From a virus: a stretch of DNA of 32,536 bases. Shown piece after piece: positions 1,213-9,115 of this stretch (the first letter of the stretch is position 1; each line of letters starts with the position of its first letter). Below the pieces are notes generated by a model. That model worked only from the letters and a program-made list of their open reading frames with translations, was not told where the DNA came from and did not search any database. The stretch spans positions 1 to 32,536 of the IMG/VR virus record IMGVR_UViG_3300035180_000506; one strand, 5' to 3'. The position numbers and the translations under genes are program-made.

Positions 1213-1241
1213 TTGACAAGTTTTGCCACTGCGCGTACAAT
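1213..1241 (+). promoter_or_regulatory. Plus-strand promoter upstream of the 27-bp array
   Basis: TTGACA (1213-1218), a 17-bp spacer and TACAAT (1236-1241) are followed by GGGCGCGGACC. This resembles the GC-rich start of the five other plus-strand modules, but the downstream sequence has no single clear hairpin. A transcript would run into the 27-bp repeat array. A primer or regulatory RNA is possible. Confidence 0.62.
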
Positions 1242-1320
1242 GGGCGCGGACCTCAAAAAAATTTGGAATTGGCACTGTATGCTGCACGGCGCACCGCGCA
1301 GAACATGGTAGGTGCTCCCG

Positions 1321-1792: not shown

Positions 1793-1821
1793 TTGACAAT
1801 TTTTTAGCGGCATGGTAAAAT
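1793..1821 (+). promoter_or_regulatory. Orphan promoter module E1
   Basis: TTGACA (1793-1798), a 17-bp spacer and TAAAAT (1816-1821) run directly into TGGCGCCGCC. The sequence from CGCTTGACA to TGGCGCCGC is nearly identical to module E2 (3287). It points away from the minus-strand gene order and no ORF follows; the next feature on its strand is the Fur-box-like palindrome. Confidence 0.8.
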
Positions 1822-1832
1822 TGGCGCCGCCG

Positions 1833-1853
1833 AAATGATAATCATTATCATTT
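1833..1853. promoter_or_regulatory. Fur-operator-like palindrome after promoter E1
   Basis: A perfect 10-1-10 palindrome centred on 1843 contains TGATAATCATTATCA, the exact 7-1-7 core of the Fur box. Aligned with the 19-bp E. coli Fur consensus, 1831-1849 matches at 16 positions. It covers roughly +5 to +25 of the E1 transcript. The flanks GCC and GGC would extend it into a hairpin in RNA, so a plain stem-loop is the alternative reading. Confidence 0.6.
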
Positions 1854-1867
1854 GGGCTTTGGGCAAG

Positions 1868-1891
1868 AAAAAACCGGGTTTTTAACCCGGC
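1868..1891 (-). terminator. Intrinsic terminator of the 2457-to-1911 unit
   Basis: On the minus strand CCGGGTT, AAA, AACCCGG (74-90 of the 1800s) is followed by six T. It lies 20 bases after the stop codon of the 52-residue ORF. Confidence 0.88.
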
Positions 1892-1910
1892 TTTAATTTA
1901 AGGCTTGATT

Positions 1911-2069
1911 TCAGGTAATTTTTACTACGTTACCTAAAATCATAATCTTATATCCTTTGGATCTAAGATTTTCTAGTTTTTTTGATAGTTTCAAGGCAAT
2001 TTTATTTGCCTTTACTTTTCTATCATAATCATTGCCAGCATTTTTCAAGTATTCCTTTTTAGTTTCCAT
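1911..2069 (-). CDS. Hypothetical 52-residue basic protein
   Basis: The ORF begins METKKEYLKNAGNDYDRKV and continues with a Lys-rich amphipathic helix (ALKLSKKLENLRSKG) and a short beta-like end (YKIMILGNVVKIT). AAGGAA lies about 10 bases before the ATG. It is the second gene behind helix-turn-helix paralogue 3, separated from it by a GC-rich stem-loop, and is followed by a terminator. The context and high Lys content fit a small nucleic-acid-binding protein, but no family is recognised. Confidence 0.72.
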   Translation of the reverse strand: METKKEYLKNAGNDYDRKVKANKIALKLSKKLENLRSKGYKIMILGNVVKIT

Positions 2070-2090
2070 ATCCAATAATTTCCTTTTTGT

Positions 2091-2111
2091 GGCCGGGCTT
2101 TTAACCCGGCC
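2091..2111 (-). other. GC-rich intercistronic stem-loop
   Basis: GGCCGGG (2091-2097) and CCCGGCC (2105-2111) enclose a 7-base loop between the stop of paralogue 3 and the next RBS. No T-run follows in either direction, so it may be an attenuator or RNA-stabilising hairpin. Its GCCGGGTTAAAA arm is also present in the terminator at 1868-1891, which suggests a local duplication. Confidence 0.65.
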
Positions 2112-2118
2112 AAGTTAA

Positions 2119-2457
2119 TTAGATAGGTTTGCTATTTGCAAGGGCGGCAAAAATCTTGTTAAGCGCCGTTTTGTTCGCCTTGGTCAGGCTTTCGGTTTCT
2201 GCTTCGGTAAAGCCAAGAACATTACCAATTGCATCCGCTACGGTGTCCTTCTTAACAGGTGCTTCACCCGTCTTTGTCGTGCGCACCTTGGCAATATAAA
2301 CCTTTTCACGGCTCAGTTTTGCAATAACGGACCTAACGCTTTTTCCCATGCTAGAAGCCAGCAATTCTACAGTTTCCTTTGTAGGATTGGCTGTGTATTC
2401 CGCAATCATTTCAGCGGTTTGTTCGGACGTGTAGTTTTCGATTTTAGTGGTTGCCAT
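2119..2457 (-). CDS. Small helix-turn-helix protein, paralogue 3
   Basis: This 112-residue protein has the family layout: MATTKIENYTSEQTAEMIAEY at the N-terminus, core GKSVRSVIAKLSREKVYIAK at about residues 38-57, linker TKTGEAPVKKD, and a C-terminal half with the ESLTKANKTAL pattern. GGAG lies about 8 bases before the ATG within GGAGAATCAAAAATGGC, a leader shared with paralogue 4 and, with one change, with the broken copy at 2576-2740. It has its own promoter at 2530-2558. A DNA-binding regulator or DNA-organising protein is the likely role; the amplification of the family in one locus is unusual. Confidence 0.88.
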   Translation of the reverse strand: MATTKIENYTSEQTAEMIAEYTANPTKETVELLASSMGKSVRSVIAKLSREKVYIAKVRTTKTGEAPVKKDTVADAIGNVLGFTEAETESLTKANKTALNKIFAALANSKPI

Positions 2458-2508
2458 TTTTGATTCTCCATTTTGGCCGGTTTAGGAATTTTGGGGTTTC
2501 GCTGGCCG

Positions 2509-2560
2509 TTTCGTCACCCCATGAAAAACATTATATAGGATTTAATTCATTTTTGCAAGT
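2509..2560. repeat. 52-bp direct repeat, copy A (carries a minus-strand promoter)
   Basis: Positions 2509-2560 are identical to 2782-2833. Each copy sits about 50 bases upstream of a helix-turn-helix start codon and contains the same minus-strand promoter. Similarity continues more weakly on both sides, so the repeat is the best-preserved part of a longer duplication. Confidence 0.9.
2530..2558 (-). promoter_or_regulatory. Promoter of helix-turn-helix paralogue 3
   Basis: On the minus strand TTGCAA (2553-2558), 17 bases and TATAAT (2530-2535) lie inside the 52-bp repeat, 72 bases upstream of the ATG. Confidence 0.8.
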
Positions 2561-2575
2561 ATTTTTTTAAAATAT

Positions 2576-2740
2576 TTAGTTTTTTTCACACAACCAAGAA
2601 ACAATACATTTACCTAGGACATTAAACAGCAATTCTACAGTTTCCTTAGTAGGTGGATTAGCCTTGTATTCCGCAGTTATTTCAACGATAGTTTCAACGA
2701 TTTCATCAATAGTGTAACTTCCAATTTTATTAGTTGCCAT
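2576..2740 (-). pseudogene. Truncated helix-turn-helix paralogue fused to a gene remnant
   Basis: An ORF of 54 codons starts MATNKIGSYTIDEIVETIVE and continues TAEYKANPPTKETVELL, matching the first 40 or so residues of paralogue 3, including its RBS and leader. After ETVELL the family core RSVIAKLSRE is missing. The sequence instead runs into a degenerate copy of the 3' end of the Cys-rich gene at 2804-3025 (compare TTTCTTGGTTGTGTGAAAA with the CGKDAKYFK-coding end) and stops. Copy B of the 52-bp promoter repeat lies upstream. It reads as a deletion within a tandem duplication. A short peptide could still be made because promoter and RBS are intact. Confidence 0.8.
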
Positions 2741-2781
2741 TTTCGATTCTCCATTTTAGCCTGTCCAGGAATTTTTTGGGA

Positions 2782-2833
2782 TTTCGTCACCCCATGAAAA
2801 ACATTATATAGGATTTAATTCATTTTTGCAAGT
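2782..2833. repeat. 52-bp direct repeat, copy B
   Basis: Identical to 2509-2560. It overlaps the last codons of the Cys-rich gene at 2804-3025 and supplies the promoter for the truncated paralogue. Confidence 0.9.
2803..2831 (-). promoter_or_regulatory. Promoter copy upstream of the truncated paralogue
   Basis: TTGCAA (2826-2831), 17 bases and TATAAT (2803-2808) on the minus strand are the same as the promoter at 2530-2558. Confidence 0.75.
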
Positions 2834-3025
2834 TTTTTCTTTAAAATATTTTGCATCCTTTCCACAACCAAAAAATATTGCATTTCTTTCAGCCATGCAA
2901 TATTCAGCATCCTGTTCTATTTGAATCCTCTCCCCTGAAACAGGGCTGATATAATAAGCCGGTTCCTTCAATTTTCTAGTACAGTAGCCAGCATTAAAAA
3001 ACTGGCAATCTTTGCATAATTTCAT
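2804..3025 (-). CDS. Cys-rich 73-residue protein, probable zinc-binding
   Basis: The protein begins MKLCKDCQFFNAGYCTRK, giving Cys4, Cys7 and Cys15, with three more Cys at about residues 43, 54 and 67. CxxC followed by spaced Cys is typical of small metal-binding knuckles in phage accessory proteins. It overlaps the upstream 52-residue ORF by four bases (ATGA), so the two are translationally coupled. Its 3' end lies in the 52-bp promoter repeat, and a decayed copy of that end is fused to the truncated paralogue. Function unknown. Confidence 0.75.
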   Translation of the reverse strand: MKLCKDCQFFNAGYCTRKLKEPAYYISPVSGERIQIEQDAEYCMAERNAIFFGCGKDAKYFKEKTCKNELNPI

Positions 3026-3180
3026 TTTGTCAATTCCTTTTTAGCCTTAATCATCAAACTCATAGCCTCATTTTCCGGCATATAAAGCGCCAGTAGATTA
3101 AACGAAGCGGAAAAACTAAATTTCATGGCTTTAAACATAGCAAGAATATATGAAATCCTTGCATTATTTACGGTTTCCAT
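3022..3180 (-). CDS. Hypothetical 52-residue protein
   Basis: The ORF starts METVNNARISYILAMFKAMK and ends MSLMIKAKKELTK. It has one moderately hydrophobic helix and a basic tail. AAAGGG lies a few bases before the ATG, and its TGA overlaps the ATG of the Cys-rich gene as ATGA, which supports both starts. The leader contains TCATCAGGTAA, also found in the leader of the HAD gene at 4214-4690. No family recognised. Confidence 0.7.
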   Translation of the reverse strand: METVNNARISYILAMFKAMKFSFSASFNLLALYMPENEAMSLMIKAKKELTK

Positions 3181-3198
3181 TTTTAACCCTTTCTTTAT

Positions 3199-3219
3199 TT
3201 ACCTGATGAGTTAATTATA
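3199..3219 (-). promoter_or_regulatory. -10 box and shared leader motif of the 3180-to-2804 unit
   Basis: A consensus TATAAT (minus strand, 3214-3219) is present but no good -35 lies 17 bases upstream. Just downstream is TCATCAGGTAA (3199-3209), repeated at the same place in the leader of the gene at 4690 (4713-4723). Confidence 0.5.
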
Positions 3220-3286
3220 CACGAAATCACAAAAAAGTGTACGATTATTTTTATGGAGTTATAAATAAAATTAGTGCAAAAAGCGC

Positions 3287-3315
3287 TTGACAATTTTTTA
3301 GTGGCATGATAAAAT
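3287..3315 (+). promoter_or_regulatory. Orphan promoter module E2
   Basis: TTGACA (3287-3292), 17 bases and TAAAAT (3310-3315) are followed by TGGCGCCGC and at once by a long hairpin. The promoter differs from E1 at only two spacer positions. No ORF follows on this strand. Confidence 0.8.
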
Positions 3316-3321
3316 TGGCGC

Positions 3322-3377
3322 CGCAAGCCATTGATTTTAAAGGCTTTTTTATTTTCCTTTAAAATCAATGGCTTGCG
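3322..3377 (+). terminator. 22-bp perfect hairpin after promoter E2
   Basis: CGCAAGCCATTGATTTTAAA plus GG (3322-3343) pairs perfectly with 3356-3377 around a 12-base T-rich loop. Within its left arm AAGCC with GGCTT followed by six T is a second, smaller terminator for the plus strand. A transcript from E2 would therefore be about 30-60 bases long. Confidence 0.75.
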
Positions 3378-3390
3378 TAAAATTATGGGC

Positions 3391-3419
3391 AAAACAAAAC
3401 CTGGTAAAGCCAAGTTTTG
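3391..3419 (-). terminator. Probable terminator of the exonuclease gene
   Basis: On the minus strand CAAAAC.TGG (one mismatch), a 5-base loop and CCA.GTTTTG are followed by TTTTG. It begins 10 bases after the stop codon at 3429. Confidence 0.65.
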
Positions 3420-3428
3420 TCAAGATTT

Positions 3429-4115
3429 TTATTTTGCAATAAATGCATCTTTTAATTGACATTCTCGCCAGTTATAGGGCCTCATTTTTTTACGCCAATT
3501 TTTACTTTTCAAAACATTAACCAAAATATGCCGCTCAAAATCTTTACAGTCTGATAATGCCGTGTGCTGTTCTGCTGCCTTTATGCCAGTAACATAATGG
3601 CACATAACTTCGGCATTGGTTTGATAAGTGGCATTTCCCAATTCCGTAACCTTATTAAAATAATGGTTATCAAGTACGAATTGACGATATTTTTTAGTTT
3701 GACCATACAAGCCGTAAGCCATCTGCCACAGGCAAAGGTAATCATTAAACCGGCTGAAATCAATCCCTGATTTCTGCAATTTATCTTTATCAAAAGCGGC
3801 ATTATAGGATACGGCAATAACTTCGGGATATTTTGCTATAACTCGGTCAAGCCAGCGATTAACTCCCTGAACCGATGATATCATAATCGAACCATTTTCA
3901 AGCATATTCGCATATTTTTGCTGGCGTAGTTTCAGATTCCAAAGTGTGCTTTGATTATCATGGAATAACGGCTCATTGGCAAAATCCTTTAGAATAACCG
4001 AGCATTCCGATTCAATTACACCATGCCTGTCACACAAAACCGCCCCAAAATCATAAACATGATCTTCCATTGTGGTTTCAGTGTCAATTATCAAAAACAT
4101 CTGTTTTTTTGCCAT
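3429..4115 (-). CDS. DnaQ-like DEDDh 3'-5' exonuclease
   Basis: The 228-residue protein has the three exonuclease motifs in order: Exo I FLIIDTETT near residue 7-15 (Asp and Glu of DxE), Exo II SYNAAFDKDKL near residue 103 (Asp), and Exo III HTALSDCKD near residue 184 (His and Asp). This is the DEDDh pattern of DnaQ, RNase T and phage-encoded exonucleases, which remove 3'-terminal nucleotides from DNA or RNA using two metal ions. No polymerase domain is attached, so it may act in proofreading in trans, in repair or in nucleotide recycling. It forms its own unit, with a promoter at 4181-4210 and a terminator at 3391-3419. Confidence 0.88.
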   Translation of the reverse strand: MAKKQMFLIIDTETTMEDHVYDFGAVLCDRHGVIESECSVILKDFANEPLFHDNQSTLWNLKLRQQKYANMLENGSIMISSVQGVNRWLDRVIAKYPEVIAVSYNAAFDKDKLQKSGIDFSRFNDYLCLWQMAYGLYGQTKKYRQFVLDNHYFNKVTELGNATYQTNAEVMCHYVTGIKAAEQHTALSDCKDFERHILVNVLKSKNWRKKMRPYNWRECQLKDAFIAK

Positions 4116-4180
4116 TTTCTTTTTTCCCTATTTTACCGTTTTGCAGTTTGCAGGTACGGACAATCAACCATGAAGCGCTT

Positions 4181-4210
4181 ATTATACAGCATTTTTATTT
4201 AAAAAAGCAA
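4181..4210 (-). promoter_or_regulatory. Promoter of the exonuclease gene
   Basis: On the minus strand TTGCTT (4205-4210), 18 bases and TATAAT (4181-4186) lie 65 bases before the ATG at 4115. It sits just after the stop of the HAD gene. Confidence 0.7.
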
Positions 4211-4213
4211 GGT

Positions 4214-4690
4214 TTAATGCCCTTGTTTGGAAGGAATATATACGCCTTTAATATTAAACTTATCACAAACAGCCTTTAGGTAATTGGTATTATCCTCAAA
4301 AAATACGGCATTATTACAGGCTGTTTTAAAATTTTTTAGGTTAAAAAATTTCTGTAAACCTTTAATTTTCAGAGTAGCGCCGGATTGGTTATCCCCTTCC
4401 TTTCTGCTGATAAAGTAGTCTGGCTTACCTAGTTTTTCATTAACAAACTTCCAATCCTGTTCACCCATTATCCGGGCAGTCGCAATTATAACGTAAGTTT
4501 CATTATCTGCTAAATCCGCTTTATATTGTTCGGCTAACGGCAGCAATGAATCGTTAAAAGCCTTATGGCTGTTATTGCGCCAATAGTCTAAATCAATCAT
4601 TTCCTTCCCGTTTTTTTCTATTGTTTTATAACGATGGATGCTACAAACTATCGTGCCATCCATATCATAAATTGCCAGTTTTTTAATCAT
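4214..4690 (-). CDS. HAD-superfamily phosphatase
   Basis: The protein has motif I YDMDGTI at residues 7-13 (nucleophile Asp and acid/base Asp), motif II IIATAR near residue 69 (Thr), and motif IV FFEDN near residue 131 (acidic pair). SRKEGD and GATLKIKGL lie between, as in small phage HAD proteins related to nucleotidase or polynucleotide phosphatase domains. Substrate unknown; a nucleotide or DNA 3'-phosphate is plausible. The start at 4690 is chosen over the ATG two codons earlier (4696) because AAGGAA abuts the first ATG but lies 6 bases from the second. Expressed from its own promoter (4729-4757). Confidence 0.82.
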   Translation of the reverse strand: MIKKLAIYDMDGTIVCSIHRYKTIEKNGKEMIDLDYWRNNSHKAFNDSLLPLAEQYKADLADNETYVIIATARIMGEQDWKFVNEKLGKPDYFISRKEGDNQSGATLKIKGLQKFFNLKNFKTACNNAVFFEDNTNYLKAVCDKFNIKGVYIPSKQGH

Positions 4691-4728
4691 TTCCATTTCC
4701 TTGTTTTGTTGTTTACCTGATGAAAATA

Positions 4729-4757
4729 ATTATATATGAAGTAATAAAAAAATGCAA
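4729..4757 (-). promoter_or_regulatory. Promoter of the HAD phosphatase gene
   Basis: On the minus strand TTGCAT (4752-4757), 17 bases and TATAAT (4729-4734) are followed by the shared leader word TCATCAGGTAA (4713-4723). Confidence 0.8.
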
Positions 4758-4803
4758 GATAATTTTTTAATCATTTCCATTTTCTTGCATTTTTTTTTTT
4801 TTA

Positions 4804-4858
4804 CCTGGCTTTGTCAAGCAAAATATATTTTCCTGGCTTTGTCAAGCAAAATATATTT
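4804..4858. repeat. 27-bp direct repeat, two copies
   Basis: 4804-4830 and 4832-4858 are identical 27-mers starting CCTGGCTTTGTCAAGC, one base apart. Read on the minus strand each contains GCTTGACAAAGCC, a -35-like word, but no proper -10 follows. A long T-tract precedes them. Confidence 0.88.
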
Positions 4859-4879
4859 GCGTATTTTTATAAAAAACGC

Positions 4880-4909
4880 TTGACGCGTACCATTTTATTA
4901 TGGTAAAAT
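4880..4909 (+). promoter_or_regulatory. Orphan promoter module E3
   Basis: TTGACG (4880-4885), 18 bases and TAAAAT (4904-4909) lead into TGGCGCGCCC and a perfect palindrome. Its spacer differs from E1 and E2 while -10 and start region are kept, so the start region is under constraint. Confidence 0.75.
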
Positions 4910-4915
4910 TGGCGC

Positions 4916-4944
4916 GCCCAAATGAGAATAATTCTCATTTGGGC
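4916..4944. promoter_or_regulatory. 29-bp perfect palindrome, Fur-box-like and terminator-like
   Basis: Fourteen base pairs on each side of a central A at 4930 are perfectly complementary. The core TGAGAATAATTCTCA matches the 7-1-7 Fur core at 12 of 15 positions. TTT follows on the plus strand, so in RNA it would also be a short intrinsic terminator for the E3 transcript (about 30-35 nt). Confidence 0.6.
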
Positions 4945-4957
4945 TTTATCAGCAATT

Positions 4958-5206
4958 TTATGCTGGATTTACAACAAAGACAATCTTGTCAGGAATCCGC
5001 GAAGGATATTCATTAGAAAAGGTCAAATAGTTAATTTTAGGATTAGTTACAAGTAATTCCGGGCTGTAAGCAGGGAAATATTTATAATTCAAATATTCCA
5101 GCGCTTTTCTAATAATTGCCTTTTCGTCAAAATATGCGCCAAATTCATTTTTTGGAATTTCGCGGATATCTTCGTATAATTCCATGATATCTATAACAAT
5201 TTTCAT
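4958..5206 (-). CDS. Hypothetical 82-residue protein
   Basis: The ORF starts MKIVIDIMELYEDIREIP and ends PDKIVFVVNPA. It is a soluble, mixed alpha/beta sequence with many aromatic residues in the middle (YLNYKYFPAYSPELL). The ATG at 5206 is chosen because it overlaps the TGA of the upstream membrane-protein ORF as ATGA and has GGAG 9 bases before it; an in-frame TTG at 5221 is also possible but less likely. Last gene of the four-gene unit starting at 5896. No family recognised. Confidence 0.7.
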   Translation of the reverse strand: MKIVIDIMELYEDIREIPKNEFGAYFDEKAIIRKALEYLNYKYFPAYSPELLVTNPKINYLTFSNEYPSRIPDKIVFVVNPA

Positions 5207-5337
5207 TTTCTCATTCTCCAATCATAATATGCTGAAATCAACAAGAGTATTAAAATACCCATTAAATCATACGCTTTTATTTCCATAAAAGTGTAAAAAA
5301 GTAAGGCAAGAAGCATCACAATAGCATATTTTATCAT
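5203..5337 (-). CDS. Small membrane protein, 44 residues
   Basis: The ORF MIKYAIVMLLALLFYTFMEI, KAYDLMGILILLLISAYYDW, RMRK has two hydrophobic segments (about residues 3-18 and 25-38) and a positively charged C-terminus. AAGG lies 8 bases before the ATG. The start is 4 bases after the stop of the metallopeptidase gene, and its TGA overlaps the next ATG. Tight packing on both sides supports a real gene. It is probably an inner-membrane protein; function unknown. Confidence 0.72.
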   Translation of the reverse strand: MIKYAIVMLLALLFYTFMEIKAYDLMGILILLLISAYYDWRMRK

Positions 5338-5340
5338 TAT

Positions 5341-5694
5341 TTAGCCTTTTTTCCTTTGGTTTAGCGTTATAAGTGGATGGTATACATCAGGGGTCAATCC
5401 CATTTTAACCATTGTTTCCTTCCAATGCTTCCCGTGTTTAGCATCCCCCATTAAACGATATGCAATATGATGGCATAATTCATGCGGAATAATAACTTTG
5501 TAAAAATATTCCTCATTGTGTGCCATTAGATAAACGCTTAAATCAATTTTATTTGAATCAAGCCATGCCCGGCCAGCCGTGGAAGTTAGGCGATTATTCA
5601 TAACAATAATCGGCATTTTTCCTATTTTATCCCCAAAAATGCATATTGCATAGTTCCACCATCCCGTGGCATTTCTTTGCGCTTTAGCTAACAT
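5341..5694 (-). CDS. SprT-like zinc metallopeptidase 1
   Basis: The 117-residue protein contains IIPHELCHHIAYRLMGDAKH at about residues 69-88, with the HExxH zinc site, and HGKHWKETM soon after as the likely third ligand region. This arrangement is that of the SprT/Wss1-like minimal metallopeptidase core, often carried by phages. It may cleave DNA-bound or host proteins; the substrate is unknown. The gene overlaps the end of the upstream membrane-protein gene by 11 bases, so it is translationally coupled. It shows little sequence similarity to the second HExxH protein at 6052-6384. Confidence 0.82.
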   Translation of the reverse strand: MLAKAQRNATGWWNYAICIFGDKIGKMPIIVMNNRLTSTAGRAWLDSNKIDLSVYLMAHNEEYFYKVIIPHELCHHIAYRLMGDAKHGKHWKETMVKMGLTPDVYHPLITLNQRKKG

Positions 5695-5896
5695 AATTTA
5701 CAATCCCCCACAGATTAACGCAAGAAAAAAATGCCCATTGCACGATTCCGGCTTTATCTCGCACGTCAACAGAAGCATAAAGCCATGCAATAGAACCAGT
5801 TAAAAATGCAATATAGCCGTAAACTTGCAAGCCAGAATTGGCAGCAACCAAAACCGCGCCGACAATTCCTGCAATAGTTCCAATCCATTTAAACAT
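5684..5896 (-). CDS. Small membrane protein, 70 residues
   Basis: The sequence starts MFKWIGTIAGIVGAVLVAAN and has three hydrophobic stretches, about residues 4-19, 27-43 and 52-68, with short polar loops (VDVRDKAG). It is the first gene of a four-gene overlapping minus-strand unit with a metallopeptidase, a second tiny membrane protein and a soluble protein. A GGA-type Shine-Dalgarno lies upstream; the promoter is unclear (a GATAAT at about 5923 with a poor -35). The pattern resembles small inner-membrane proteins common in proteobacterial phages. Function unknown. Confidence 0.75.
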   Translation of the reverse strand: MFKWIGTIAGIVGAVLVAANSGLQVYGYIAFLTGSIAWLYASVDVRDKAGIVQWAFFSCVNLWGIVNYVS

Positions 5897-5968
5897 TTTA
5901 GTTTATCCTTAGTTGATGGAATAATTATCCTATATTTTAAATAGTTTGCATATAACCCCTATTGGGTA

Positions 5969-5998
5969 TTGACAAGCCCTGGGTTATCGTGATAAAAT
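5969..5998 (+). promoter_or_regulatory. Orphan promoter module E4
   Basis: TTGACA (5969-5974), 18 bases and TAAAAT (5993-5998) precede TGGCGCGCCC and a terminator. The spacer AGCCCTGGGTTATCGTGA is close to that of E5, so the five modules fall into subtypes E1/E2, E4/E5 and E3. Confidence 0.8.
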
Positions 5999-6008
5999 TG
6001 GCGCGCCC

Positions 6009-6034
6009 AAGCCTTTGAAAACAAAGGCTTTTTT
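6009..6034 (+). terminator. Intrinsic terminator immediately after promoter E4
   Basis: AAGCCTTTG, AAAA, CAAAGGCTT is followed by further T (six in a row). It begins only 10 bases after the -10 box, so the predicted E4 transcript is about 30 nt and consists almost wholly of the terminator hairpin. The T-run is on the plus strand only. Confidence 0.88.
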
Positions 6035-6051
6035 ATTATTATTATCAAAGG

Positions 6052-6384
6052 CTATTCTATGTTGTAACCAATGCTTTCAAAATACTTCATCCAGTTATGA
6101 AAACTTAAGCCGTGGCCTACTTCTTCTTTATTTTCTAGCTGCCAAGCATGGATTAGCTCATGTAAAATGGTTTCCTCAATTGCTTTAGTAGTCATATTAA
6201 GAACAGTGGAAATCTTAATATTATGATATTCCTTCATATTCTTATCCAGTTTGGATTCATAGTATCCAAACGTCTTACTTGATGAGTTTGGCCTAACTTT
6301 AATTCTATATTGTAGATTAAAGCCATAATATGCATTAAATGCATTGGCTTTTTCCTCAAGGTACGCTCTAGTTGAATGTTTCAT
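6052..6384 (-). CDS. SprT-like zinc metallopeptidase 2
   Basis: The 110-residue protein starts MKHSTRAYLEEKANAFN and carries ILHELIHAWQLE with the HExxH zinc motif at about residue 75, followed by GHGLSFHNWMKYF, a typical third-ligand segment of the SprT-like core. The ATG at 6384 is preferred over one six codons earlier because AAAGGA lies 8 bases before it and the upstream gene stops at 6387. Having two HExxH proteins in one early region suggests distinct substrates. The second gene of the unit starting at 6518. Confidence 0.82.
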   Translation of the reverse strand: MKHSTRAYLEEKANAFNAYYGFNLQYRIKVRPNSSSKTFGYYESKLDKNMKEYHNIKISTVLNMTTKAIEETILHELIHAWQLENKEEVGHGLSFHNWMKYFESIGYNIE

Positions 6385-6386
6385 GA

Positions 6387-6518
6387 TTAAAATCCTTTCC
6401 ATTGAACATAACGCAATGTTACCATAAGCAATGCAAAAAGTACAGCAATAGGCAAAGAAGCGGCAGAAATCAATGCCATAATCATGCCCAAGGTAATACC
6501 TTTTAATAGTGCGCCCAT
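6387..6518 (-). CDS. Small membrane protein, 43 residues
   Basis: The ORF MGALLKGITLGMIMALISAA, SLPIAVLFALLMVTLRYVQW, KGF is almost entirely hydrophobic and would span the membrane once or twice. The start at 6518 has GAGG 8 bases upstream. Longer in-frame starts up to 6638 would place the N-terminus across the promoter at 6555-6583 and have no Shine-Dalgarno. The stop is 2 bases before the metallopeptidase start, so the genes are coupled. Function unknown; pairing of a tiny membrane protein with an HExxH protein is repeated in the 5896-5203 unit. Confidence 0.68.
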   Translation of the reverse strand: MGALLKGITLGMIMALISAASLPIAVLFALLMVTLRYVQWKGF

Positions 6519-6554
6519 TTTGTTAGCCTCATTCATTGTGTTATTTGATGATTC

Positions 6555-6583
6555 ATTATTGCATAGTGGGCACAATTTTGCAA
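6555..6583 (-). promoter_or_regulatory. Promoter of the 6518-to-6052 unit
   Basis: On the minus strand TTGCAA (6578-6583), 17 bases and AATAAT (6555-6560) lie 36 bases before the ATG at 6518. Confidence 0.68.
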
Positions 6584-6616
6584 CATATTTATTTATATTT
6601 ATTTTTGATTTATCTA

Positions 6617-6646
6617 TTGACAAGCCCTGGATTATCATGGTAAAAT
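6617..6646 (+). promoter_or_regulatory. Orphan promoter module E5
   Basis: TTGACA (6617-6622), 18 bases and TAAAAT (6641-6646) precede TGGCGCCGCC. Its spacer is nearly that of E4 while its start region is that of E1. The transcript would cross a Fur-like palindrome and then a long hairpin antisense to the end of helix-turn-helix paralogue 4. Confidence 0.8.
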
Positions 6647-6660
6647 TGGCGCCGCCAGAT

Positions 6661-6679
6661 GCGAATGAGAATCATTCGC
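6661..6679. promoter_or_regulatory. Fur-operator-like palindrome after promoter E5
   Basis: GCGAATGA, GAA, TCATTCGC is a perfect inverted repeat. Aligned with the 19-bp Fur consensus it matches at 14 positions. It lies at about +8 to +27 of the E5 transcript, the same place as in E1 and E3. Confidence 0.5.
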
Positions 6680-6688
6680 TATACAGCA

Positions 6689-6736
6689 GAACATCAAGCC
6701 GGCATGATATTTGCTTATCATGCCAGCTTGATGTTC
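6689..6736. other. 20-bp stem-loop over the stop codon of paralogue 4
   Basis: GAACATCAAGC (6689-6699) pairs with GCTTGATGTTC (6726-6736) and GGCATGATA (6701-6709) pairs with TATCATGCC (6716-6724), with one mismatch and a 6-base loop. Neither side has a T-run, so it is not a classical terminator. It overlaps the last bases of the gene at 6735-7058. Confidence 0.78.
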
Positions 6737-7058
6737 ATTCAGCCTTAATGGCTTTCAGCAGTTTAGCAAGTACAGTCCTATTTGCTTTAGACAAGGAAGC
6801 GCATTCTGCTTCAGTAGCGCAGACCAGAAACCCGACCTGATAAGCCAGATCATCCTTTTTAACAGTAGCCTTATCAGACTGTGCATTTTTGACCTTGGCT
6901 TTGTAACAGCCTTCCCTGCTAAGTTTAGCAACGACAGACCTAACGCTTTTACCCATGCGCTTCGCCAATGCTTCCACAGTGACGCCTTCGTTAGTATATG
7001 CCTCAATCATTGCAGCAGTTTGTTCAGCCGTATAGTTTACTTGTTTAGTGGTTGCCAT
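6735..7058 (-). CDS. Small helix-turn-helix protein, paralogue 4
   Basis: The 107-residue protein starts MATTKQVNYTAEQTAAMIEA and has the core GKSVRSVVAKLSREGCYKAK near residues 36-55, a short linker with TVKKDD, and a C-terminal half with the ASLSKANRTVL pattern. It is closest to paralogue 3 in the start region and shares its leader GGAGAATCAAAAATGGC. It is the first gene left of the strand switch and has the strongest minus-strand promoter (TTGACA, 17, TATAAT). A DNA-binding regulatory or DNA-organising role is likely by domain shape; the target is unknown. Confidence 0.88.
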   Translation of the reverse strand: MATTKQVNYTAEQTAAMIEAYTNEGVTVEALAKRMGKSVRSVVAKLSREGCYKAKVKNAQSDKATVKKDDLAYQVGFLVCATEAECASLSKANRTVLAKLLKAIKAE

Positions 7059-7293: not shown

Positions 7294-7345
7294 GCGATAA
7301 CTGCGATAACTGCGATAACTGCGATAACTGCGATAACTGCGATAA
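7294..7345. repeat. 9-bp iterons upstream of the terminase genes
   Basis: Five perfect head-to-tail copies of GCGATAACT (7294-7338) are followed by a partial sixth (GCGATAA). They sit in the 362-bp gap between the divergent early and late genes, just upstream of the terminase promoter. Placement next to terS fits a packaging (pac/cos) recognition site or an operator; the sequence cannot decide. Confidence 0.93.
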
Positions 7346-7363
7346 GCATAAAAAATTTTTAAC

Positions 7364-7392
7364 TTGACATAATTTCCTTAAGCTGTTATAAT
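7364..7392 (+). promoter_or_regulatory. Promoter of the packaging unit
   Basis: TTGACA (7364-7369), 17 bases and TATAAT (7387-7392). The upstream AGCATAAAAAATTTT (7345-7359) is repeated exactly in front of the promoter at 11182, which suggests a shared UP-like element. Confidence 0.9.
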
Positions 7393-7900: not shown

Positions 7901-9115
7901 ATGTTAGACGCTATTACACACGAATATAATAAATCTGTAGCGTATCTTAATAAGGGTAACTATAAAAAAGCTCTCACAATACTTAAAAAGTGTCTTAGCC
8001 AGGTAGAATTTAAGGAAGCGTATCTAAATATTGGAAACTGTTATAGGATGTTGGGTCAGGATACTAAAATGATTGAGTCCTATAAGAAAGCCTGCTCACC
8101 TAAAATAACTTTTCTAGATGGCCATACTATAGAGGAGTACCCGGCTGGTCTAAATAACCTAGGTCTTGCTTACTATATGTGTGGATATGATGATCTAGCT
8201 ATTGAGTGTTATGAGAAAGCAATTGCTGTAGAGCCCAAATTCTGGGATGCCTGGTGGAATTGCAGTACAGCAGTATTACGTAAGGCTTCTTCTGGGCAAC
8301 TTGATTTATTCCCAGAAGGATGGATGATGTATGATGCCAGGTTCCTAAAGACACCACCTATTAAAATGAAGAATACTAAAGAGTCCCTAGTTTATTGGGA
8401 TAGAGTATCTTCCGGCACAGCAATAATTGTCTTAGCAGAACAAGGTATTGGTGATGCTATTATGTGGGGTCGCTACCTGCCTCTATTAGCAGAAAAATTC
8501 TCTGAAGTATATGTACAGTGTGATGCAGAGTTAGAGCCCGTATTTTCCGACTATAAATGTGTTAGAGATGCATCTGAGTGCCCAGCCGAATTAGCTATTC
8601 CAATGTGCACACTTTCTAAATGTTTTGATACTATTCCTTCTGGAGATTGGTTACGTGATAAATTTTCTGCATTTGATTTTGGCCCCTCTGAGAGGCTTAA
8701 TGTGGGTGTTGTACATTGTGGTTCAGCTACTCATGCTAATGATCGTAATAGGAGTATTCCTATACACCGTTTTCATTTCCTTAGTAAGTATGTTAATCTT
8801 TACAGTCTTGTACCAGGTTTTAATACTACTAAACATGTTACTGGGCTGGATATCCACTCATGGGAAGATACGGCAAAATACATTAATGGACTGGATCTTG
8901 TCATCTGTGTCGATACGTCGGTAGCTCATATGGCTGGGTCTCTTGGAGCTAAAACATGGCTCCTACAACCATTAAAAGAAACAGATTTTAGATGGGGTAA
9001 TAACGTTTCTTCTAGCGTATGGTATGACTCTATACAAATTTTTAATAATCCCAACTCTTGGGAGCATGTATTCTCCCAAGTAGAGGATGCAATAAAGTCG
9101 GAGTTATATTTATAG
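7901..9115 (+). CDS. TPR protein with GT9-like glycosyltransferase domain
   Basis: The 404-residue protein begins with TPR-like repeats (about residues 5-130; YLNKGNYKKALTILKKCL, AYLNIGNCYRMLGQ, NNLGLAYYMCGYDDLAIECY and EKAIAVEP). From about residue 170 it has a GT-B-type region: EQGIGDAIMWGRYLP, the motif NDRNRSIPI near residue 285, and LVICVDTSVAHMAGSLGAKT near residue 335, then WYDSIQIF. These are marks of the bacterial TPR plus GT9-like family related to heptosyltransferases. It abuts the stop of the small terminase gene and ends 1 base before the large one. It may glycosylate a virion or host protein; the acceptor is unknown. Confidence 0.82.
   Translation: MLDAITHEYNKSVAYLNKGNYKKALTILKKCLSQVEFKEAYLNIGNCYRMLGQDTKMIESYKKACSPKITFLDGHTIEEYPAGLNNLGLAYYMCGYDDLAIECYEKAIAVEPKFWDAWWNCSTAVLRKASSGQLDLFPEGWMMYDARFLKTPPIKMKNTKESLVYWDRVSSGTAIIVLAEQGIGDAIMWGRYLPLLAEKFSEVYVQCDAELEPVFSDYKCVRDASECPAELAIPMCTLSKCFDTIPSGDWLRDKFSAFDFGPSERLNVGVVHCGSATHANDRNRSIPIHRFHFLSKYVNLYSLVPGFNTTKHVTGLDIHSWEDTAKYINGLDLVICVDTSVAHMAGSLGAKTWLLQPLKETDFRWGNNVSSSVWYDSIQIFNNPNSWEHVFSQVEDAIKSELYL

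Follow-up and report, generated by a model that had tools for sequence, protein, structure and literature searches.

Gene-less sigma-70 promoter modules facing away from the pre-early-like genes of a T5-like phage lineage known from metagenomes

We have analyzed a virus record from metagenomes (IMG/VR record IMGVR_UViG_3300035180_000506; "the window" is the whole record, 32,536 bases) that carries five copies, E1 to E5, of a short module. It consists of a sigma-70-type promoter followed by an inverted repeat, and it points against the neighboring genes with no gene of its own. The module belongs to a family of 563 distinct copies over 196 IMG/VR stretches, from a large T5-like (Demerecviridae-like) lineage known only from metagenomes, and the element is apparently undescribed. 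Our favored reading, to which we give a probability of roughly 0.4, is that each module is a self-terminating untranslated transcription unit that stands back-to-back with the promoter driving the next unit, and that would punctuate and possibly boost the pre-early units.

Searching the window for TTGACR-N16-18-TAAAATTGGCGC, with the chance level taken from 100 shuffles, gave five exact matches, all on the plus strand, at 1793, 3287, 4880, 5969 and 6617, and none in any of the shuffles, so that the set of five modules of the original prediction, with its positions and strand, is confirmed. Its grouping by spacer similarity (E1 with E2, E4 with E5, E3 apart) is also correct. The consensus is TTGACR-N17/18-TAAAAT-TGGCGC and then an inverted repeat. 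All five promoters are near consensus (10–11 of 12 positions), TG precedes the -10 in every one, and a stable stem-loop lies 3' of each (RNA z-scores for E1 to E5 of -3.7, -9.3, -6.5, -3.9 and -8.4). The features of the array, with lengths in base pairs (bp), are as follows.

1213 to 1247, plus strand: sixth, weaker copy (TTGACA-17-TACAAT-GGGCGC) in the repeat-rich region, without a strong hairpin
1793 to 1827, plus strand: E1 promoter; -35 at 1793–1798, spacer 17, TG-extended -10 at 1816–1821, a T, GGCGC at 1823–1827
1829 to 1857, plus strand: E1 inverted repeat, with a perfect Fur-box match TGATAATCATTATCA at 1836–1850
1874 to 1895, unstranded: stem-loop CCGGGTTTTTAACCCGG past E1, with a T-rich tail on the plus strand; TTTTTTCTT follows on the minus strand
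3287 to 3321, plus strand: E2 promoter; -35 at 3287–3292, spacer 17, -10 at 3310–3315, GGCGC at 3317–3321
3322 to 3377, plus strand: E2 stem, perfect over 22 bp with a T-rich loop; AAGCC..GGCTTTTTTATTTT inside is terminator-like in the plus direction
4880 to 4915, plus strand: E3 promoter; TTGACG, spacer 18, -10 at 4904–4909, GGCGC at 4911–4915
4892 to 4897, plus strand: E3 spacer arm ATTTTA, complementary to the E3 -10
4916 to 4944, plus strand: E3 stem of 13 bp, with an exact Fur-box-type TGAGAATAATTCTCA at 4923–4937
5969 to 6004, plus strand: E4 promoter; -35 at 5969–5974, spacer 18, -10 at 5993–5998, GGCGC at 6000–6004
6009 to 6038, plus strand: E4 intrinsic terminator, AAGCCTTTG-AAAA-CAAAGGCTT and a T-run; a compensatory change in the relative L124 keeps the stem
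6617 to 6652, plus strand: E5 promoter; -35 at 6617–6622, spacer 18, -10 at 6641–6646, GGCGC at 6648–6652
6659 to 6680, plus strand: E5 inverted repeat GCGAATGAGAATCATTCGC, a Fur-like site (1 mismatch) whose center is inverted in L124
6689 to 6736, unstranded: second hairpin, 21 bp, at the 3' end of the 6735–7058 gene

The comparison with L124 indicates which parts of the module are maintained. The two agree at 48 of 48 positions from the -10 through GGCGC and almost completely in the -35, while spacers are 50–83% identical, with length shifts of 1 bp, over genes and flanks that are mostly about 90% identical. Since the -35, -10 and discriminator are kept while the spacers diverge faster than the genes, the promoter elements are probably under selection, in agreement with the earlier claim that these elements and the start region are conserved by function. 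In the E4 stem both sides have changed with pairing retained. Whole spacers appear replaced, with no gene exchange seen, a pattern compatible with recombinational exchange between cassettes. The plus strand open reading frames near E2, E4 and E5 carry stops or frameshifts in L124, so protein-coding genes behind the modules are rejected and, in line with the prediction, no conserved reading frame follows on the module strand.

The family is not peculiar to the window. The exact word occurs in at least 116 IMG/VR stretches and a TATAAT version in at least 120, versus 7 for a control with permuted discriminator. A T5-like terminase was present in 39 of the 43 module records checked, and in records with both, the modules lie upstream of the terminase and on its strand; a single copy in G036 departs from this, as could result from the arbitrary point at which that record begins. 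As a check for bias we took 40 loci picked by terminase alone, regardless of module. At least one exact module was found in 33, and near-consensus promoters numbered 166 on the module strand vs. 20 on the gene strand, nearly all of the 166 having GGCGC 0–3 nucleotides (nt) 3' of the -10. The module was not found in T5 nor in the examined stretch of Vibrio phage VspSw_1, and the cultured phages searched gave no module match covering 80%. Bacterial genomes gave no match with a first pattern that covered the 18-bp spacing and missed the 17-bp one, and two isolated matches with a broader pattern. A search of relatives had been suggested along with the original prediction; the family turned out to be common to many of them, so the modules do not vary freely. 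One stretch (L120) has tandem modules at 3471 and 3561, 90 bp apart, and the spacer of the first is a perfect 16-bp palindrome.

The large terminase of the window is 48% identical to those of Vibrio Demerecviridae phages, and T5-like portal, capsid and tail genes are also encoded. Among the minus strand genes of the module block is a dmp-like gene (deoxynucleoside-5'-monophosphatase; 4214 to 4696, minus strand; tblastn with T5 dmp, 1.5e-8), dmp being a pre-early gene of T5. Together with the T5-like genes this leads us to consider the block pre-early-like. It lies between a repeat-rich region (1000–1700) and the terminase operon, and blastn of the module region against cultured phages found no homology.

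Over the family, the conserved genes that flank modules are mostly on the opposite strand, bearing out that modules point against their neighbors and have no gene of their own. Their predicted location in gaps between minus strand units holds for E2 to E5, with minus strand genes on both sides, but not for E1, which is the left edge of the array and adjoins the repeat-rich region. A gene-strand promoter (at least 9 of 12 positions) divergent from the module was found within 200 bp in 59% of cases vs. 21% in shuffles, with a median -35 to -35 distance of about 52 bp. Each module therefore converges on the previous gene and diverges from the next, and it usually stands back-to-back with the promoter of the latter.

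Stems are a second constant of the family, in structure though not in sequence. One of at least 10 net pairs lies within 80 nt past GGCGC in 63% of copies; random windows have one in 6% and shuffled windows never. In sequence the stems are highly diverse, too variable for the sequence-specific tiny RNA that had been considered. A T-run on the plus strand follows 46 of 381 non-redundant stems (about 12%) and a U-run on the gene strand 29, so most hairpins of the family do not look like intrinsic terminators. In the window the hairpins of E2 to E4 had been described as terminator-like; E2 and E4, the only true T-run terminators by sequence among the five, fit the description, but E3 lacks the T-run. 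Intrinsic terminators within 200 nt downstream are nevertheless present in 22% of copies on the plus strand and 29% on the gene strand, vs. 1–2% in shuffles, so that in these copies either transcript should end before it extends far into the other.

In the favored reading, host sigma-70 RNA polymerase would bind the module strongly and start just past GGCGC, heading to the 3' end of the previous gene and away from the next one. The transcripts in the window would be about 30–90 nt long, untranslated and mostly hairpin. Local loading of polymerase and short transcription would punctuate the gene block, and the module may help initiation at the weaker promoter of the next unit, which diverges from it and usually lies 30–70 bp behind. 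Because the sequence of the product is not conserved, the function most likely resides in the local act of transcription; a strong conserved promoter without a conserved product, with partial termination nearby and with a divergent partner, points the same way. The decoy, tiny-RNA and roadblock readings offered originally are indistinguishable from sequence alone. Several facts weigh against punctuation and boosting. A divergent gene is missing at E1 and at other copies on the left edge, and in some 70–80% of copies one or other direction lacks an intrinsic terminator over the first 200 nt. Besides, simple punctuation or boosting does not account for the spacer arm, complementary to the -10, of half of the copies. 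The element is in any case widespread and easily recognized, may bear on the order and switching of T5-like pre-early genes, and is compact enough for cloning and reporter assays in E. coli.

The spacer arm is an unusual trait, in that part of a promoter spacer changes in step with the -10 of the same promoter. In 290 of the 563 distinct copies it is the reverse complement of the -10, and its hexamer tracks the -10 of the same copy in 290 out of 290 (ATTTTA with TAAAAT in 102, ATTATA with TATAAT in 188). The length of the neighboring A-run tracks that of the T-run in the discriminator as well (1:1 in 157, 2:2 in 21, 3:3 in 65), and the gap between arms is mostly 3, 4, 5 or 6 nt. Such strict co-variation with flexible arm spacing argues for base pairing. 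The inverted repeats could act as DNA, with the arm folding with -10 and discriminator into a cruciform in supercoiled DNA, or into a hairpin in single-stranded DNA, and the promoter being switched by topology or strandedness; roles in DNA entry, priming or packaging are other options for a DNA structure. The lineage would then carry arrays of structure-gated sigma-70 promoters whose spacers co-evolve base by base to pair with -10 and discriminator, and untranslated units back-to-back with pre-early genes would be switched by the topology or strandedness of the DNA as it enters and replicates. We consider this an unlikely explanation, albeit the best single alternative because the spacer arm is otherwise unexplained. 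The 290 co-varying arms and the loops of 3–6 nt are easier to reconcile with pairing than with a dimeric protein whose half-sites are a fixed distance apart, and inverted repeats are likewise abundant in the T5 injection stop region (PMC13250531). Among mismatches in the downstream stems G-T is not clearly enriched and A-C is slightly so, hence no sign of a plus strand RNA hairpin, a reading set aside on this ground. However, the arm is absent from almost half of the copies, including four of the five in the window (E3 is the only one, with just the 6-base part), the fixed spacing of 17–18 bp speaks for an ordinary double-stranded promoter, and palindromes can also be perfected by template-switch repair.

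In most gaps the modules point towards the previous gene, antisense to it, and transcripts driven against that gene might silence the pre-early block later in infection. This antisense shut-off seems improbable to us, given the immediate terminator-like hairpins of E2 and E4 and the terminators that 22% of the family carry within 200 nt; at terminator-bearing modules the hairpin would stop most antisense RNA. Somewhat more doubtful still is that the product itself matters, as abundant structured RNAs of 25–90 nt that titrate or inhibit a host factor. Strong promoters, stable hairpins right past the start and a structure kept while the sequence is free would suit it, but there is no conserved RNA sequence, no Rfam match for the module RNA and no excess of wobble pairs.

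The stems might also be operators for a host repressor such as Fur, making the module a sponge or a metal-sensing promoter. The three Fur-box matches of the window (at most 1 mismatch over 32.5 kb) all fall in E1, E3 and E5, as predicted sites of an inverted repeat of TGAKAATNATTMTCA type, exact in E1 and E3 and with 1 mismatch to the degenerate consensus in E5. Non-redundant stems of the family include 8 of Fur type vs. 0.02 expected and 6 of Zur type (1 mismatch allowed) vs. 0.02, and the Fur-box matches of T5 itself are confined to its terminal repeats. Yet the majority of stems fit no box in the tested set and those of E2 and E4 resemble terminators, and we regard this reading as very unlikely. 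As a general explanation host operators are rejected, since among 21 box types compared with arm-permuted stems only Fur, Zur and parS were clearly above chance. Zur-box-like palindromes TGTTATAACATAACA are found within module stems of L019, L046, L109 and L119. parS-like sites (TGTTTCACGTGAAACA, some exact) occur close downstream of 15 module copies, an enrichment of about 28-fold relative to random windows when 1 mismatch is allowed (L091 at 6186, L043 at 1582, L023 at 1121, also L033, L155, L177, L204, L218 and others).

That TG|GCGCN marks nick sites on one strand, as the core of the T5 single-chain interruption consensus R/GCGCRGG (quoted in PMC3517423), is the least credible proposal: RGCGC is in every module by definition, and the terminase strand carries nearly all modules, as it does the five nicks annotated in the T5 record, but GCGC is seldom followed by RGG (a C usually comes next), T5 nick sites lack TTGAC/TAWAAT and T5 lacks the module, and T5 nicks are dispersed over the genome whereas modules are clustered.

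Other features of the window can be mentioned here. Small minus strand genes at 357–689, 2119–2457 and 6735–7058 weakly match families of phage DNA-binding proteins; the last two have a repeated 5' region in common, and part of it recurs at 2576–2740. Two neighboring SprT-like metalloprotease genes occupy 5341–5694 and 6052–6402. At 7294–7354 there are 5–6 repeats of 9 nt, GCGATAACT, directly upstream of a late promoter at 7364 (12/12 consensus), and a reading frame of 404 amino acids (7901–9115) with weak matches to phrog_7590 and phrog_22932 separates the genes of the small and large terminase subunits.

Stringently controlled stable-RNA promoters (of rRNA and tRNA type) have near-consensus -35 and -10 and a GC-rich discriminator. 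Modules are alike in these elements, but a stable RNA gene follows those promoters and none follows the modules.

Closest to the modules among known systems are the promoter-early stem-loop (PeSL) motifs, reported, in the work cited in a passage of PMC4503421, to mediate shuffling in T4-like phages. In the stretch of phage RB49 examined, promoters have stems in the spacer (43008, 33312, 25315), across the -10 (42332, 39107, 36963, 2809) or after it (20535, 15781, 9459), and many gene-strand matches have a ribosome site and an ATG behind; we take them to be PeSL motifs. Like the modules, they combine a sigma-70-type promoter with an intergenic stem-loop, which may occupy the spacer, overlap the -10 or follow it closely, in many copies between small early genes. 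The matching early promoters of that RB49 stretch face a gene, whereas modules face away, without a gene and with a constant GGCGC, in T5-like phages. A PeSL promoter driving the adjacent downstream gene is not what we find, the flanking genes being usually on the opposite strand and the plus strand frames disrupted in L124. Since the architecture is common but the orientation differs, modules are in part a PeSL-like variant and not a member of that class. The claim of an undescribed system is thus upheld for the family, which is apparently undescribed, and has to be tempered in that stem-loop-embedded promoters, although facing genes, exist in RB49.

With T5 the comparison is of another kind. 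Its interruption sites have in common with the modules the RGCGC core on one strand, while flanking sequence and distribution differ, and identity with R/GCGCRGG is discarded as only that core is shared. The injection stop region of T5 is rich in repeats, palindromes and DnaA boxes (PMC13250531). The window at 1320–1586 has eight direct repeats of 27 nt (TTTTCTAAGTGGTTGATTTCATTGG) beside TTTGCACTAATCTCCC repeats, resembling that region in position and style. The T5 injection stop and pre-early terminal repeat likewise adjoins pre-early genes and is rich in inverted repeats, and it holds Fur, LexA and DnaA box matches. In the T5 genome (AY543070, L145–L147) all Fur-box matches (at most 1 mismatch over 121.7 kb) are within the terminal repeats, at 233, 9554, 9658 and 9693 plus the right-repeat copies, together with two identical LexA boxes (6213, 9411) and DnaA boxes TTATCCACA (6121, 6194, 9510). 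The T5 boxes cluster without the TTGACR-TAAAAT-TGGCGC promoter, unlike the modules described here, but sites for host proteins in the DNA that enters first are a theme shared by T5 and the modules, and one worth testing.

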